From the NCBI GenBank assembly GCA_029961075.1, contig JASBVL010000024.1, positions 1 through 64,000 on the forward strand: 64,000 bases of DNA. Direction: 5' to 3'. The notes below the pieces were generated by a model. The model saw only the letters and a list, made by a program, of their open reading frames with translations. It had not been told where the DNA came from and ran no database searches. Source of the stretch: Sphaerobacter sp. (GTDB lineage Bacteria > Chloroflexota > Chloroflexia > Thermomicrobiales > Thermomicrobiaceae). Shown here in pieces: positions 1 through 26,841 of this stretch; within the stretch, counting starts at the first letter, position 1; the number at the start of each line of letters is the position of its first letter. The position numbers and the translations under genes were made by a program.

Positions 1-190
1 CCACGGCGCCGAGGCGGAGCACCGTGCCCCAGGCGGCCTGCGCGACCGAGCGCCGGTCGAGGGAGAGGTGGACCGCGCCGAGGGCCGACCCGGCCAGGAG
101 GAGATAGAGCGGGTTCCGCGTGGTGACGATCAGGAGCGCGGCCGCAGCGGCCCACCCCAGCCAGGCCACCGGATTGACCCGCTGGCTCAC
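1..190 (-). CDS. ECF-type transporter permease (EcfT/CbiQ-like), N-terminal part
   Basis: The gene starts with GTG at 190 and runs off the window at position 1, so only about 63 residues are visible. They begin VSQRVNPVAWLGWAAAAAL and contain a hydrophobic stretch, then a charged LSLDRR segment, as in the first helices of energy-coupling-factor T components (CbiQ/EcfT family), which often open with an xPxAWLxWA-type motif. The start overlaps the stop of the DUF4430 gene as GTGA, so the two are translationally coupled in the cobalamin-riboswitch operon. T components are membrane scaffolds joining the ATPases to a substrate-binding S protein; here the likely substrate is cobalamin, by inference from the riboswitch. 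The fragment is short, so another membrane protein cannot be excluded. Confidence 0.6.
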   Translation of the reverse strand, partial: MSQRVNPVAWLGWAAAAALLIVTTRNPLYLLLAGSALGAVHLSLDRRSVAQAAWGTVLRLGAV

Positions 191-1155
191 GGTCCCCCTC
201 CGGTCCGCCTCCGGCGCACGAGCGCCACGGCCGTCGCCCCGCCGGCCGCCAGCAGGAGCGCGCCGAACGTCAGGTAGGAGGCGGGGATGCCCCCGCTGCC
301 CTGGTCCGTCGCCCGCGGCGTGATCTGCCCTGACGGGGTGACCTCGACCGCCCGGGCGATCGGTGAGGCCGCGGGCGAGGCGGCCGGCGGCACGGTGGCC
401 GTCGGTGTCGCGGCGGGCGTCGCCGTGGCCCGCACCGCGGCCGGCGCTGGGGTCGCGGCTACGGTGGGCGACGGTCCGGCCGGCTGCGCGGGGGTCGGCG
501 TCGACGTCGGCGTCACGGTGGGCGGATTCGCGGATACCGGCGGTGGGGCCGTCGGAGCCGGCGCCGCGGCCGGCGTCGGCGTCGGTGGCGGTGGCGGCGC
601 GGGAGCTGGCGGCTCCGGGGCGGCGCGATCCACGCCGTTGAGCCGGGCGATCTCGTCGATCGAGGTCGGGGGGAGGTCGCCCGTGCCGGCGGACCACGAC
701 CAGCCGTCAACATCGCCGTCGCGAATCGTGCGGCTCGCCGGGCCGCTGGGCGCCAGACGCCAGGTCCCGTCCGGCCCCAGCGTGTAGTAGTGCCAGAAGT
801 AGGCAGGACTCTGGTAACTCTGGCAGAAGCAGTTGTCGGCGGGACAGCCCTCCCCGTCCAGCGCACAGACAGCCTCGCCCAGGCCCCCGAACGGCGCGAT
901 CGTCGTGGCCAGGCCGGAGCGCGCCAGGAGATCGGCGCCGGTGATCGCGGGCTCAGTAAACTCGACGTAGACGTAGACCAGCCGGCCGTCGCCGTGGCGC
1001 ACCACCAGCCCCGCGCCGTTGGGCCGGGCCGCGTCGGCGGTGGGCGACCCGACCAGCCAGAGCAGGGCCAGCGCCAGGAGGGCGCCAAGCGGCAGGAACC
1101 ACGGAGCGCGCCGCGGCCGGTGGTGGCCGCGGCGCTCGGTCACTGGGCGGCTCAT
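187..1155 (-). CDS. membrane-anchored DUF4430 (transcobalamin beta-domain-like) protein
   Basis: This is a 322-residue exported protein. Residues 18-42 form a signal/transmembrane segment. Residues ~48-160 match the DUF4430 type of domain, with conserved features such as the ITGADLLAR and YFWHYYTLGPDGTW stretches and four cysteines (97, 104, 109, 111). Residues ~175-285 are a Pro/Thr/Ala-rich stalk, and ~290-312 are a C-terminal helix followed by RRRR, so the domain should sit outside on a tether. DUF4430 is the fold of the C-terminal beta domain of intrinsic factor and transcobalamin. The ATG overlaps the stop of the upstream barrel gene (ATGA) and its own stop overlaps the permease start. 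The inferred role is extracytoplasmic cobalamin capture together with the barrel protein; binding itself is not shown. Confidence 0.8.
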   Translation of the reverse strand: MSRPVTERRGHHRPRRAPWFLPLGALLALALLWLVGSPTADAARPNGAGLVVRHGDGRLVYVYVEFTEPAITGADLLARSGLATTIAPFGGLGEAVCALDGEGCPADNCFCQSYQSPAYFWHYYTLGPDGTWRLAPSGPASRTIRDGDVDGWSWSAGTGDLPPTSIDEIARLNGVDRAAPEPPAPAPPPPPTPTPAAAPAPTAPPPVSANPPTVTPTSTPTPAQPAGPSPTVAATPAPAAVRATATPAATPTATVPPAASPAASPIARAVEVTPSGQITPRATDQGSGGIPASYLTFGALLLAAGGATAVALVRRRRTGGGP

Positions 1156-2678
1156 CGCTGCGCCCGCTCACCCGCGCTGAGGAGTTCGGCACCGAGGAGG
1201 CCACCTAAGACGTCGTAGTGGGCCGGTGTCACGCCGGGGTGCCACTCGAAGCGTGCCCGCTCGAAGTACTGCACGGTGCGCCCGTTCTCGACGAACTCCT
1301 CGCTGATCGGGTAGCCGAACACGGCGAGCCCGCCGAAGCGCTGCCAGTAGCTGTTGAAACCGCCGCACAGGCTGTGCTGCGTCTCGGCGAAGTAGAGACA
1401 CCCGGCCTGTGCCCTGGCATCGACCGGTTGGAAGGGCACCTCGCCGCGCCGGTCGGCCGTGACCTCGTTGCCGACGAGGCCGAGCAGCACATCGTAGCGC
1501 TCGGGCCAGACGCCCGGGTGCCACTCAAAGCGCGCCCGCTCGAAGTACTGCACCGTGCGCCCGTTCTCGACGAACTCCTCCGTGATGGGGTAGCCGTAAA
1601 CCGCCAGCCCGCCGTACTCGATCCAGTACGACCGGAACCCGGCGCACAGGTTGTGGCCCGTCTCGGCGTAGTAGACGCAGCCAGCCTTCGGCGCCGCGGG
1701 CTGCATGGCTCGCTCGCGGGCCGTCGCGCGCCCGAAGCCGGGCTGGGCCGCGATCGGGAGCGGCTGCAGCGCCAGTGCGGGCACGGCCTGCACCGTGGCG
1801 AGCAGGTTGTCGCCGGGGACGTCGTCCCGGTAGCGGAGGGCGCCGCTCTCCGACTGGAAGCGCGTGAGGGCGGCCAGAGCCGACTGCACGGTGGGCGAAT
1901 CCCGGCGCTCACCGGCCGCGAGCAGGGCCTGGATGGCGAGCGCGGTTGAGTTGGCGTCGCCGACCGCGGGCGTCTCCGCGCCGACCTGGTAGACGAACGA
2001 TCCATCGTCGGTCTGGGCAGCGCGCAGGTAGCCGAGCCCGCGGTCGATCGCCGGCGACGTGCGCTCTCCGGCGGCGGCCAGCGCCTGGATGACGATCGCC
2101 GTGGTGTTGCTGTCGGCCGCGCCCGGTGCCGGGTCGCCGGTGAAGGCCCAACCGCCGTCGGCGGCCTGGGCCGCCGTCACGGCGTCGATGGCCGCTGGCG
2201 GCACGGGCACGCCAGCGGCGGCCAGTGCCAGCATGCCGTAGGCGTGCACGAAGATCTGCGGATCAAACAGCCCGGTAGCCGGGTCGAGGTGCGCCTCCAG
2301 CCGGGCGACCAGGTCGATGCCGCCGAAGTCGCGCGGATTGAGCCCGCTGGCGACCGCGGCGAGGATCAGCTTGGCGGCACCCGCCGTCGTGGTCGAGTAC
2401 TGGTCGGCCCGCGCGCGCAGGAAGTCAATGATGGATTGTCCCGCCACTGCGACGAGGTCCGGGTCGATGCCGGCCGCGGCGAAGGCCAGGGCCGCATCCA
2501 CGGTCACGCCGGGGTCGCTCGCTCCGGAGAACCCGGCAAAGCCGCCGTCCGCCTGCTGCTGGGTGCGCAGCCAGTCGACCGCGCTCGCCGCAGGCGCAGT
2601 GGGCGCCCCGAGCGCGGCGGGTGCGATGGTGCCAAGGAGCAGGCACACCAGCACGAGGGCATGGATCACTCTTCGCAT
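1152..2678 (-). CDS. secreted alpha/alpha-barrel protein with two C-terminal LGFP-like modules, B12-riboswitch controlled
   Basis: This is a 508-residue protein starting at ATG 2678 behind a GGGGGGAG ribosome site; the reading frame is open further upstream, but only this start gives a signal peptide (residues 1-24, cut after AALGA). Residues ~33-305 hold repeats of the prenyltransferase/squalene-cyclase kind (QQADGGFAGF, QAADGGWAF, QTDDGSFVY, each followed by an AIQALLAAG-like helix), the alpha6/alpha6 toroid also used by the N-terminal domain of transcobalamin and intrinsic factor. Residues ~332-406 and ~425-500 are two near-identical modules with GGLAVxGYPIxEEF and VQYFERARFEWHPG, resembling LGFP cell-wall repeats. 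It is the first gene after the cobalamin riboswitch and is coupled to the DUF4430 gene. It probably binds cobalamin at the cell surface; catalytic cyclase function is unlikely because no DxDD-type acid motif is seen. Confidence 0.8.
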   Translation of the reverse strand: MRRVIHALVLVCLLLGTIAPAALGAPTAPAASAVDWLRTQQQADGGFAGFSGASDPGVTVDAALAFAAAGIDPDLVAVAGQSIIDFLRARADQYSTTTAGAAKLILAAVASGLNPRDFGGIDLVARLEAHLDPATGLFDPQIFVHAYGMLALAAAGVPVPPAAIDAVTAAQAADGGWAFTGDPAPGAADSNTTAIVIQALAAAGERTSPAIDRGLGYLRAAQTDDGSFVYQVGAETPAVGDANSTALAIQALLAAGERRDSPTVQSALAALTRFQSESGALRYRDDVPGDNLLATVQAVPALALQPLPIAAQPGFGRATARERAMQPAAPKAGCVYYAETGHNLCAGFRSYWIEYGGLAVYGYPITEEFVENGRTVQYFERARFEWHPGVWPERYDVLLGLVGNEVTADRRGEVPFQPVDARAQAGCLYFAETQHSLCGGFNSYWQRFGGLAVFGYPISEEFVENGRTVQYFERARFEWHPGVTPAHYDVLGGLLGAELLSAGERAQR

Positions 2679-2711
2679 CGATATCTCCCCCCACGGTATG
2701 GCATGTCTGGC

Positions 2712-2735
2712 GCGTCGCGGGCATGCCTGCGACGC
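2712..2735 (-). other. hairpin between riboswitch and first structural gene
   Basis: A near-perfect inverted repeat, with arms GCGTCGC/GCGACGC and an inner GGC/GCC pair, lies about 35 bases before the start of the barrel protein gene. There is no uridine tract, so it is not a standard terminator. It may be part of the riboswitch expression platform or just a GC-rich palindrome. Confidence 0.3.
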
Positions 2736-2761
2736 CACGCTGGTTGGGACCGGGGTGGGGG

Positions 2762-2788
2762 TCAGGTGATGCGCTGGCGATGCACCAT
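2762..2788 (-). CDS. possible 8-residue leader peptide MVHRQRIT
   Basis: A very strong Shine-Dalgarno sequence (AAGGAGGGAGG), better than that of the main gene, is placed correctly before an ATG that reads eight codons and stops. It lies directly after the riboswitch aptamer and about 80 bases before the barrel gene start. It could be a translated leader whose ribosome site is masked by the riboswitch, or a chance ORF. No similar peptide is recognised. Confidence 0.3.
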   Translation of the reverse strand: MVHRQRIT

Positions 2789-2828
2789 GGTGTCCTCCCT
2801 CCTTGGCTCGAGGCGGAACGGACACGGC

Positions 2829-2960
2829 AGCGGCGGGTAATCTGGCTTCGCCGCGGCTCAACGCGGCGTTACAGTTGCGGCACAGCCCCGGACTTTCACC
2901 GGTGTTCCCCCGTGTGGACCGACCCTGCTGGGTCGGCACCCGCTGCCGAAGGGGATCAAT
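2829..2960 (-). promoter_or_regulatory. cobalamin (B12) riboswitch
   Basis: Read on the minus strand, the sequence has the ordered hallmarks of the class I cobalamin aptamer: GGTGCC with a GACC/GGTC arm, then GGGGAAC, CCGGTGAAAGTCCGG, GCTGTGCCGCAACTGTA, a GC hairpin, and the B12-box part AGCCAGATTACCCGCC. It lies between a candidate promoter at 2990-3018 and the barrel/DUF4430/permease operon, so the operon should be switched off when adenosylcobalamin or another cobalamin is plentiful. A Shine-Dalgarno sequence follows within about 40 bases, which suggests control of translation. Confidence 0.93.
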
Positions 2961-2989
2961 TGCCTGACGTCAACGACGTCGACGGCAAC

Positions 2990-3018
2990 AGTCTGGCACC
3001 GATCTCGAGCGACGTCAA
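2990..3018 (-). promoter_or_regulatory. candidate sigma-70 promoter of the B12 operon
   Basis: On the minus strand, TTGACG (3018-3013) and CAGACT (2995-2990) are separated by 17 bases. The -35 box is strong and the -10 box weak. Its place about 30 bases before the riboswitch aptamer is what supports it. Confidence 0.5.
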
Positions 3019-24903: not shown

Positions 24904-26841
24904 CTAGCGGTTGAGCAGCGCGCCGACGTACTTCAGCAGCTCGTTGGCGCAGACCGGGCAGTAGCCCTGCTCGCGGATGAGCCGGTCGACGACGTCGTTT
25001 ATGCGGCGGAGCTGATCCGCGTCGGGCGTCTTGGTCGAGGTCGTGATCTTGACCACGTCGCGCAGGTCGGCGAAGAGCTTCTTCTCGATCGCCTCTCGCA
25101 GGCGCTCGTGTGAGCGGTAGTCGAAGGGCTGGCCGCGGCGCGCGAGCGACGAGATGCGGATCAGGACCTCCTCGCGGAACTGCCGCTTGCCGTTCTCGGT
25201 GATGCCGATCTGCTCCTCGATCGAGCGCATGAGCCGCTCGTCTGGCTCCATCTCCTCCTCGGTGATCGGGTCGATCACCTTGGTCTTGTTGCAGTAGGCC
25301 TCGACGTTGTCGAGGTAGTTGTTGAGGAGGGTGCGGGCCGACTCTTCGAAGGAGTAGACGAAGGCCTTCTGGACCTCGCGCTTGGCGAGCTCGTCGTACT
25401 CGCGGCGGGCCTCGGCGATGAGGTTGAGCAGGCGCTCGTGCTCCTCGCGGGAGATGCTGGTGTGCTGCTCGAGGCCGTCGCGCAGGCTGCGCAGCGCGTC
25501 GATGGCGTTGATACAGGTCACGCCCTCGCGCACGAGGGCGGCAGAGAGCCGGTTGATGACGTAGCGGGGGGAGATGCCGTCCATGCCCTCGCGGGTGGCC
25601 TCCTCCTGGAGCTCGCGCACGTCCTTGAGGGTGAAGCCCTCGACCGCCTGGCCGTCGTAGAGCTTGAGCTTCTTCATGAGCGTCATGCCGGCCTTCTTGC
25701 TCTCCTCCAGGCGGGAGAGGACGGCGAAGGTGGCGGCCGTCTCGAGCGTGCCCCGGGCGATGTGGACGTTGCTGATGGCGCTCTGGCGCAGGAGCTTCTG
25801 GTAGATGCGGACCTCATCGGAGACGCGCAGGTTGTAGGGAACTTTGACCAGGATGATGCGGTCCTGGAGCGCCTCGCTCTTCTTGTTGCCGACGAAGGCG
25901 ATGTACTCGTGCTCGTTGGTGTGGGAAATCACCACCTCATCGGCGTAGATCATCGAGAAGCGGCCGGTCTTGATGTTCTGCTCCTGGGAGAGGGTGAGGA
26001 GCACGTAGAGGAAGCGCTCGTCGGTCTTGAGCATCTCAATGAACTCGACCAGGCCGCGGTTGGCGATGTTCAGCTCGCCGTCGAAGCGGTAGGCGCGGGG
26101 GTCGGACTCGGTGCCGACCTCGCCGATGGTGGAGAGATCGATGCCGCCGACGAGCTCAGAGATGTCCTGCGACTTCGGGTCGGAGGGCGTGAAGGTGCCG
26201 ATGCCGAGCCGGTGCTTCTCGGAGAAGGCGACGCGCACGATCGGGACATCCTCGTGCCGGCCGGAGAAGGGCTTGTCGGGCCGGCTCCAGGGGTGCGCCG
26301 GGCCGCGCTCGGCCCGCTCGAGCTGGAAGCGGCACCAGGGGCAGAGCTCGCCCTCGATGTAGATGCCGTAATCCGCCATGAGCTCCATGCGGATCGACTC
26401 GGGCACCAGGTGCAGCGGCTCTTCGTGCATCGGGCAGCCCTTGATGGCGTAGAGCGCGCCGCGGTCGGTCCGGGTGTAGCGCTCGAGCCCTCGCTTGAGC
26501 ATGTTCACGATGGTCGACTTGCCGCCGCCGACGGGCCCCATGAGCAGCAGGATGCGCTTGCGCACTTCGAGGCGCTGCGCGGCGGAGCGGAAGTACTCGA
26601 CGATCTGCTCCAGCGACTTGTCGATGCCGAAGATCTCCTCGTCGAAGAAGCGGTAGCGAACGCTGCCGTCGTCCCGCTCCTCGACGCCCGCGTCCTGGAT
26701 CATGTTGAAGATGCGGGCGTGGGCGAGCTGCGCCAGCGTCGGGTTGGCGGCGACCATGTCGAAGTACTCGGCGAAGGTGCCCTCCCAGCCGAGCTTCTGC
26801 TCTTCAGCGCGAAACGAATGCAAACGGTCGGCAAGAGACAT
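24904..26841 (-). CDS. prkA: PrkA family serine protein kinase / AAA+ protein
   Basis: The protein has 645 residues, the usual length. GPVGGGKSTIVNMLKRGLE is the P-loop of the N-terminal AAA-like domain; the C-terminal part carries the PrkA kinase-like region. Long conserved stretches such as NRGLVEFIEMLK, TLSQEQNIKTG and ISHTNEHEYIAF are diagnostic. Recent work on Bacillus PrkA also reports Lon-like activity, so the kinase label is uncertain. It is the first gene of prkA-yhbH-spoVR; a ~690-base gene-free region lies upstream. Confidence 0.95.
   Translation of the reverse strand: MSLADRLHSFRAEEQKLGWEGTFAEYFDMVAANPTLAQLAHARIFNMIQDAGVEERDDGSVRYRFFDEEIFGIDKSLEQIVEYFRSAAQRLEVRKRILLLMGPVGGGKSTIVNMLKRGLERYTRTDRGALYAIKGCPMHEEPLHLVPESIRMELMADYGIYIEGELCPWCRFQLERAERGPAHPWSRPDKPFSGRHEDVPIVRVAFSEKHRLGIGTFTPSDPKSQDISELVGGIDLSTIGEVGTESDPRAYRFDGELNIANRGLVEFIEMLKTDERFLYVLLTLSQEQNIKTGRFSMIYADEVVISHTNEHEYIAFVGNKKSEALQDRIILVKVPYNLRVSDEVRIYQKLLRQSAISNVHIARGTLETAATFAVLSRLEESKKAGMTLMKKLKLYDGQAVEGFTLKDVRELQEEATREGMDGISPRYVINRLSAALVREGVTCINAIDALRSLRDGLEQHTSISREEHERLLNLIAEARREYDELAKREVQKAFVYSFEESARTLLNNYLDNVEAYCNKTKVIDPITEEEMEPDERLMRSIEEQIGITENGKRQFREEVLIRISSLARRGQPFDYRSHERLREAIEKKLFADLRDVVKITTSTKTPDADQLRRINDVVDRLIREQGYCPVCANELLKYVGALLNR

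Follow-up and report, generated by a model that had tools for sequence, protein, structure and literature searches.

What is the role of the short operon at the edge of a Sphaerobacter sp. contig (assembly GCA_029961075.1, contig JASBVL010000024.1, numbered C50 here), in which two exported proteins and the beginning of a transporter gene follow a cobalamin riboswitch? The whole stretch that was analysed, positions 1 to 64,000 of this contig, is called the window. The operon lies on its minus strand and encodes, in order, an alpha/alpha-toroid protein, a beta-domain protein and EcfT of the energy-coupling factor (ECF) transporters. The answer we consider likely is that it specifies an uptake system for vitamin B12 (corrinoid), in which an importer resembling ECF-CbrT is joined to a two-protein, transcobalamin-like clamp, with both binding and transport being predicted.

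The cobalamin riboswitch, which an earlier note on this DNA had called from the letters alone, was borne out by the covariance model. RF00174 matched over its full length at 2959 to 2815 of the minus strand (cmscan 45.5 bits, E 3.2e-8, with the gathering score at 31.5), and this was the sole Rfam match when the whole 64-kb window was scanned. The aptamer is 137 nucleotides upstream of the toroid start codon, and the three genes behind it overlap as had been described, by 4 nucleotides between the gene of the toroid protein (1152 to 2678, 508 amino acids) and that of the beta-domain protein (187 to 1155, 322 amino acids), and by 7 between the latter and the EcfT gene (1 to 193), all on the minus strand. 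A longer toroid reading frame of 595 amino acids, starting with GTG at 2939, was rejected in favour of the ATG at 2678, because the longer frame runs through the riboswitch and the ATG begins a signal peptide.

The same arrangement was seen in related loci. At gathering thresholds, 39 of 47 operon loci have a riboswitch directly on their 5′ side, always on the same strand and at a distance of 119 to 435 nucleotides from the first domain, and no match to RF00174 or RF01482 besides those 5′ of operons was found in the 676 kb scanned. A sub-threshold riboswitch occupies the equivalent place in four loci of the Thermomicrobium/Thermalbibacter group, three of these being in genomes that are counted as missing it. 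The strongest cobalamin riboswitch (120.6 bits; L095, 5768-7005) precedes a protein with two beta domains, and no toroid or ECF gene was found in that locus. Elsewhere (L030, L032, L033, L035, L037 and L038), divergent genes adjoin the riboswitch-led operon, and judged by eye they look like those of an exporter of the TauE/SafE type, of a small protein of the membrane and of a nucleosidase-like protein.

The leader of the window operon has features of its own. Between the riboswitch and the toroid start (2780 to 2830, minus strand), and likewise in the L026 and L039 leaders, lies the block CCGCCTCGAGCCAAGGAGGGAGGACACCA, which three species of the genus share with little or no change. Base pairing is possible between its GGACAC and GTGTCC at the 3′ end of the riboswitch, around a Shine-Dalgarno-like AAGGAGG, and judged from the letters this pairing is perhaps a candidate expression platform. 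A possible leader reading frame of 8 codons after the riboswitch was dropped, as its ATG reads AAG in the relative L039.

The toroid protein consists of a signal peptide, the toroid at residues ~26-310 (modelled domain at 1713 to 2615, minus strand) and two LGFP-like/Chloroflexi surface repeats (~329-417 and ~427-500). Its AlphaFold model, made from the natural alignment, has a predicted local distance difference test score (pLDDT) of 97.2 and a predicted template modelling score (pTM) of 0.94, and the signal peptide and the modelled fold together agree with the secreted alpha/alpha-toroid that had been proposed. The further proposal, that this barrel matches the cobalamin-binding alpha domain of animal carriers, held by profile, but by fold alone terpene cyclases are nearer. 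Against the alpha domain of intrinsic factor, haptocorrin and transcobalamin, the sequences of which were confirmed against or taken from PDB entries, the toroid profile reached hhalign 93.6%, E 3e-8 and a score of 44, where 40 column shuffles gave a maximum of 4.4. The family profile also matches haptocorrin along the greater part of the domain (E 1.1e-4), and Foldseek lists transcobalamin for the toroid with E 4e-6 to 2e-5. Three conserved motifs, DSNTTA, GDANSTALAIQA and DN..AT.QAIPA, are in register with NVDTGAMA, GDIYSTGLAMQA and NPMSIAQILPS of intrinsic factor; in aligned form, bacterial D-S-N-T-T-A, G-D-A-N-S-T-A-L-A-x-Q-A and Q-A-I-P-A-L face N-V-D-T-G-A-M-A, G-D-I-Y-S-T-G-L-A-M-Q-A and Q-I-L-P-S-L. 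The eukaryotic cobalamin-binding family PF01122 gave no match at E<=1 for the window toroid and matched 10 of its 58 relatives, with 2e-7 as the best value. The best curated relative is SCO2321_fam (NF053823; E 7e-31, 107.5 bits, under the cut-off of 300), and the Pfam name of the toroid is SQHop_cyclase (SQHop_cyclase_C E 7e-10).

The C-terminal repeats, earlier described as wall-binding-like modules, do exist but can be dispensed with, as the toroid is the last part of the protein in many relatives, and they are likely to be surface attachment modules. The two copies (1152 to 1700, minus strand) read YWxxxGGLAVxGYPIxEEFVENGRTVQYFERARFEWHPG, and the repeat is also present in an unrelated exported protein of the same genome (L043, 10847-12595, minus strand).

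The beta-domain protein is built of a signal peptide, the beta domain (~42-165), a Pro/Thr-rich stalk and a C-terminal membrane span at 294-313. The AlphaFold model of the domain, again from the natural alignment, has a pLDDT of 94.2 and a pTM of 0.88. When it was compared with solved structures by VIA-align, the top matches were the bacterial 3u7z, intrinsic factor, haptocorrin and transcobalamin, with Z from 12.2 to 10.9; the three carriers, with a sequence identity of 6-14%, scored Z 10.9-12.0 over 97-101 residues, far above the next unrelated chain at Z 5.3. As modelled, the domain is confirmed to have the transcobalamin-type beta fold, just as the resemblance of this half had been foreseen. 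Its description as a tethered DUF4430 protein was right for the fold and for the membrane span, but did not hold by sequence: neither the window protein nor any of its 23 nearest relatives was matched by PF14478 (DUF4430) at E<=1, and in the wider relative set it matched 2 of 66, at best with 0.09. SCO2322_fam (NF040672) is the best curated relative (E 1.4e-4, 22.2 bits, under the cut-off of 85), and in the class of L099 this model gave sub-cut-off matches only. Four cysteines (Cys97, 104, 109 and 111 of P0002; 604-1038, minus strand) stay unchanged among close relatives' beta domains but are lost in others, e.g., L094, and may be disulphides or ligand contacts.

The two surface proteins were then found to travel together. 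The order toroid, beta protein, EcfT and EcfA recurs in about 20 relatives of the same order and in most of 58 loci in the genome collection, these being mainly from Chloroflexota, with a few from Actinobacteria and one on a Berkelbacteria contig; in a phylum-wide draw of 300 Chloroflexota genomes, 87 (~29%) have the beta domain. Toroid and beta domain are inherited as a pair in nearly all loci and are fused in one chain in five. In the Berkelbacteria locus (L094), a single protein directly behind a cobalamin riboswitch has the toroid first and the beta domain second, and this is the only locus with an animal-type single chain in alpha-then-beta order, the other four (L086, L090, L091 and L096) having the beta domain joined to two toroids. 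In L035, the beta domain and EcfT share one open frame. Such fusions, read from the gene sequences, suggest that the parts work together.

For the transporter itself, the evidence had to be assembled from more than one contig. The third gene was indeed that of an ECF-type permease, EcfT, but only its first 64 codons are in the window before the contig edge ends it. The remainder is at the end of contig C24 (L022, 8868-9641, minus strand), where it is the genome's only CbiQ/EcfT match and where the next genes encode a fused EcfA-EcfA′, a PII-like small protein and RecA, in the same order as in near relatives; the ECF ATPases for which the earlier note advised looking beyond position 1 were found in this fused protein. 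In L026, from a close relative with a two-contig genome, the region is unbroken and runs helicase, riboswitch, toroid, beta protein, EcfT, EcfA, PII-like protein and RecA. There EcfT matches PF02361 (CbiQ) above the cut-off with E 4.7e-7 and EcfA matches TIGR04520/TIGR04521 above the cut-off; in the window genome the C-terminal part of the EcfT split by contig ends reaches E 1.4e-3, below the cut-off, and Walker A and Walker B motifs occur twice each in EcfA.

The S component, which was expected to lie near the operon, is not there: no S gene is present in the window or in the operons of near relatives. It was found instead on contig C57 of the genome (G000), where a homologue matches PF12822 above the cut-off and is 47% identical (E 2e-56) to the L076 protein used as the search query, a PF12822 protein encoded directly after the operon's beta gene. 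In other lineages, 22 S homologues stand inside operon loci, and L090, L091 and L101 each encode one protein with a beta domain fused to a following PF12822-type membrane domain. An ECF system without an S component was accordingly rejected, given the homologue elsewhere in the genome and those in other lineages' operons, and a second PF12822 match, on C93, was set aside as a riboflavin-type S component (PF07155 E 5e-31). The best solved relative of the S family is 6fnp, the CbrT of ECF-CbrT, at E 1.6e-8, with the next S component, 4hzu, at 0.0066, so that by homology the family is CbrT-like, i.e., not for another vitamin, which on this point speaks for the B12 proposal. Across 41 genomes, 26 had both the beta protein and the S component, 2 and 5 had a single one and 8 had neither (Fisher p 4.5e-4, with relatedness uncorrected). 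Directly before the CbrT-like S gene on C57 is a PF01497 BtuF-like gene (25760-26710; L042, 5761-6711) with no obvious signal peptide; this BtuF-like/S pair is also adjacent in L103-L105, L107, L110, L112, L113, L115, L117, L118 and L120, where no riboswitch was found.

The gene content of the genome fits an organism that must import corrinoids, as it has B12-binding domains, CbiC/CobH was not found, and no clear BtuC was present in this draft genome (91% complete), with only two borderline FecCD matches.

Put together, the parts would act in the following way. When cobalamin is scarce, the riboswitch would permit expression of the operon, and the cell would export the toroid and the stalk-anchored beta protein as the separated halves of a transcobalamin-type clamp. 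In the animal carriers, the isolated alpha and beta domains each bind cobalamin (Cbl) and Cbl is needed for their association, with the beta domain binding Cbl first and the alpha domain then closing over it (PMC11107200). By analogy, the beta protein on its stalk would catch the corrinoid at the membrane first and the toroid would close as a lid. The clamp would then hand the corrinoid to the CbrT-like S component in the membrane, a step made plausible by lineages in which beta and S domains are directly fused, and the operon's EcfT and fused EcfA ATPase would energise the S component for import.

Several observations weigh against this account. The fold of the toroid is nearest to squalene-hopene cyclase, with Z up to 27, and transcobalamin is absent among its 50 best VIA-align rows. 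By sequence the beta domain does not detect the transcobalamin beta domain (hhalign 0.4%, no PDB match), for which reason the link between the two rests on fold. The S gene of the window genome is away from the operon and has no above-threshold riboswitch near it, and the absences from the gene content are weak evidence, because the genome is a draft at 91% completeness. The cyclase-like fold, together with the Pfam name, could be taken to mean that the toroid has an enzymatic role, like that of terpene cyclases or on glycans, and came under B12 control for some other reason. Its export, its co-inheritance with the beta domain and the ECF transporter, and the matches of its relatives to PF01122 and haptocorrin make this very improbable.

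A question closer to the system is whether the two surface proteins form one clamp or bind B12 independently of each other or as receptors with some other purpose, for example storage, sensing or the stripping of B12 from other carriers. They are separate genes in the window, some loci with several toroids or several beta domains depart from a 1:1 stoichiometry, and in L095, where no toroid was found, a strong riboswitch stands before two beta domains; yet the pair is co-inherited almost throughout and five times a single chain, and animal carriers sandwich Cbl with exactly these two folds, which leaves separate binders an unlikely explanation. Only a little less unlikely is that the substrate is not complete cobalamin but a B12-regulated relative, for example cobalt ion, cobinamide or dimethylbenzimidazole. 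The EcfT belongs to the CbiQ (cobalt) Pfam family, and cobalt transporters are also under cobalamin riboswitches. ECF-CbrT, moreover, takes up cobinamide too (PMC5997447). On the other hand, the S component is PF12822/CbrT-like and not CbiM, the clamp halves resemble carriers of whole corrinoids, and with no CbiC imported cobalt would not readily be turned into B12 here.

A corrinoid importer with a split clamp can be set beside several known systems. ECF-CbrT of Lactobacillus delbrueckii (6fnp), a proven importer of B12 and cobinamide (PMC5997447), is likewise of the ECF type, and by profile its S component belongs to the family found here (E 1.6e-8). In contrast to it, the present system adds a dedicated ECF module in the operon, a cobalamin riboswitch, the toroid and sometimes a beta-S fusion; ECF-CbrT is active in liposomes that contain no clamp of this kind. 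A DUF4430 lipoprotein of Lacticaseibacillus rhamnosus (LGG_02295/LRHMDP2_2713), adjoining the B12-dependent reductase gene rtpR, carries the annotation ‘additional lipoprotein component of putative cobalamin ECF transporter’ (PMC9963975). It is probably a version of the beta half only, tied to a B12 ECF transporter, likened here by annotation and not by sequence, and no toroid partner is described for it; from the L. delbrueckii gene cluster nrdJ-cbrS-cbrT-pduO, we infer that CbrS is this DUF4430 lipoprotein of lactobacilli. The link by annotation between such a lipoprotein and a cobalamin ECF transporter in lactobacilli is already known. As far as the mainly open-access literature searched shows, what appears new is the toroid partner, the split-transcobalamin resemblance of the pair, the operon's own ECF module and the fusion of beta and S domains; no article in it was found to link DUF4430 or SCO2321/2322 proteins to a transcobalamin-like clamp.

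The nearest curated relatives of the pair, SCO2321_fam and SCO2322_fam in NCBIfam, are names without function, and both matches are below their cut-offs. A function is now proposed for these two unexplained families, the SCO2321-like toroids and SCO2322-like beta proteins of Chloroflexota and some Actinobacteria. ECF importers have been described as capturing their substrate by the S component in the membrane; here a clamp on the outside appears to have been added, in some lineages even fused to S. Bacteroides BtuG and BtuH are surface lipoproteins that also capture B12 for a transporter, with different folds and a TonB-dependent outer-membrane partner.

A further comparison is with the animal carriers. 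Intrinsic factor, haptocorrin and transcobalamin (PDB 2pmv, 4kki and 2bb5) share with the bacterial pair an alpha6/alpha6 toroid and a ubiquitin-like beta domain, and the pair suggests a counterpart of these human B12 carriers that is split in two proteins, which could serve as a natural two-part B12 binder. It is conceivable, if somewhat short of an even chance, that the two go back to a shared ancestral two-part clamp, of separate ECF subunits in bacteria that were later fused and taken over by animals, and the question where intrinsic factor and transcobalamin came from can now be put to a direct test. In animals the carrier is one chain with the alpha domain first, whereas the bacterial halves are two proteins, one of them tethered to the membrane, and, as far as the genes tell, they serve an ECF transporter and not endocytosis.

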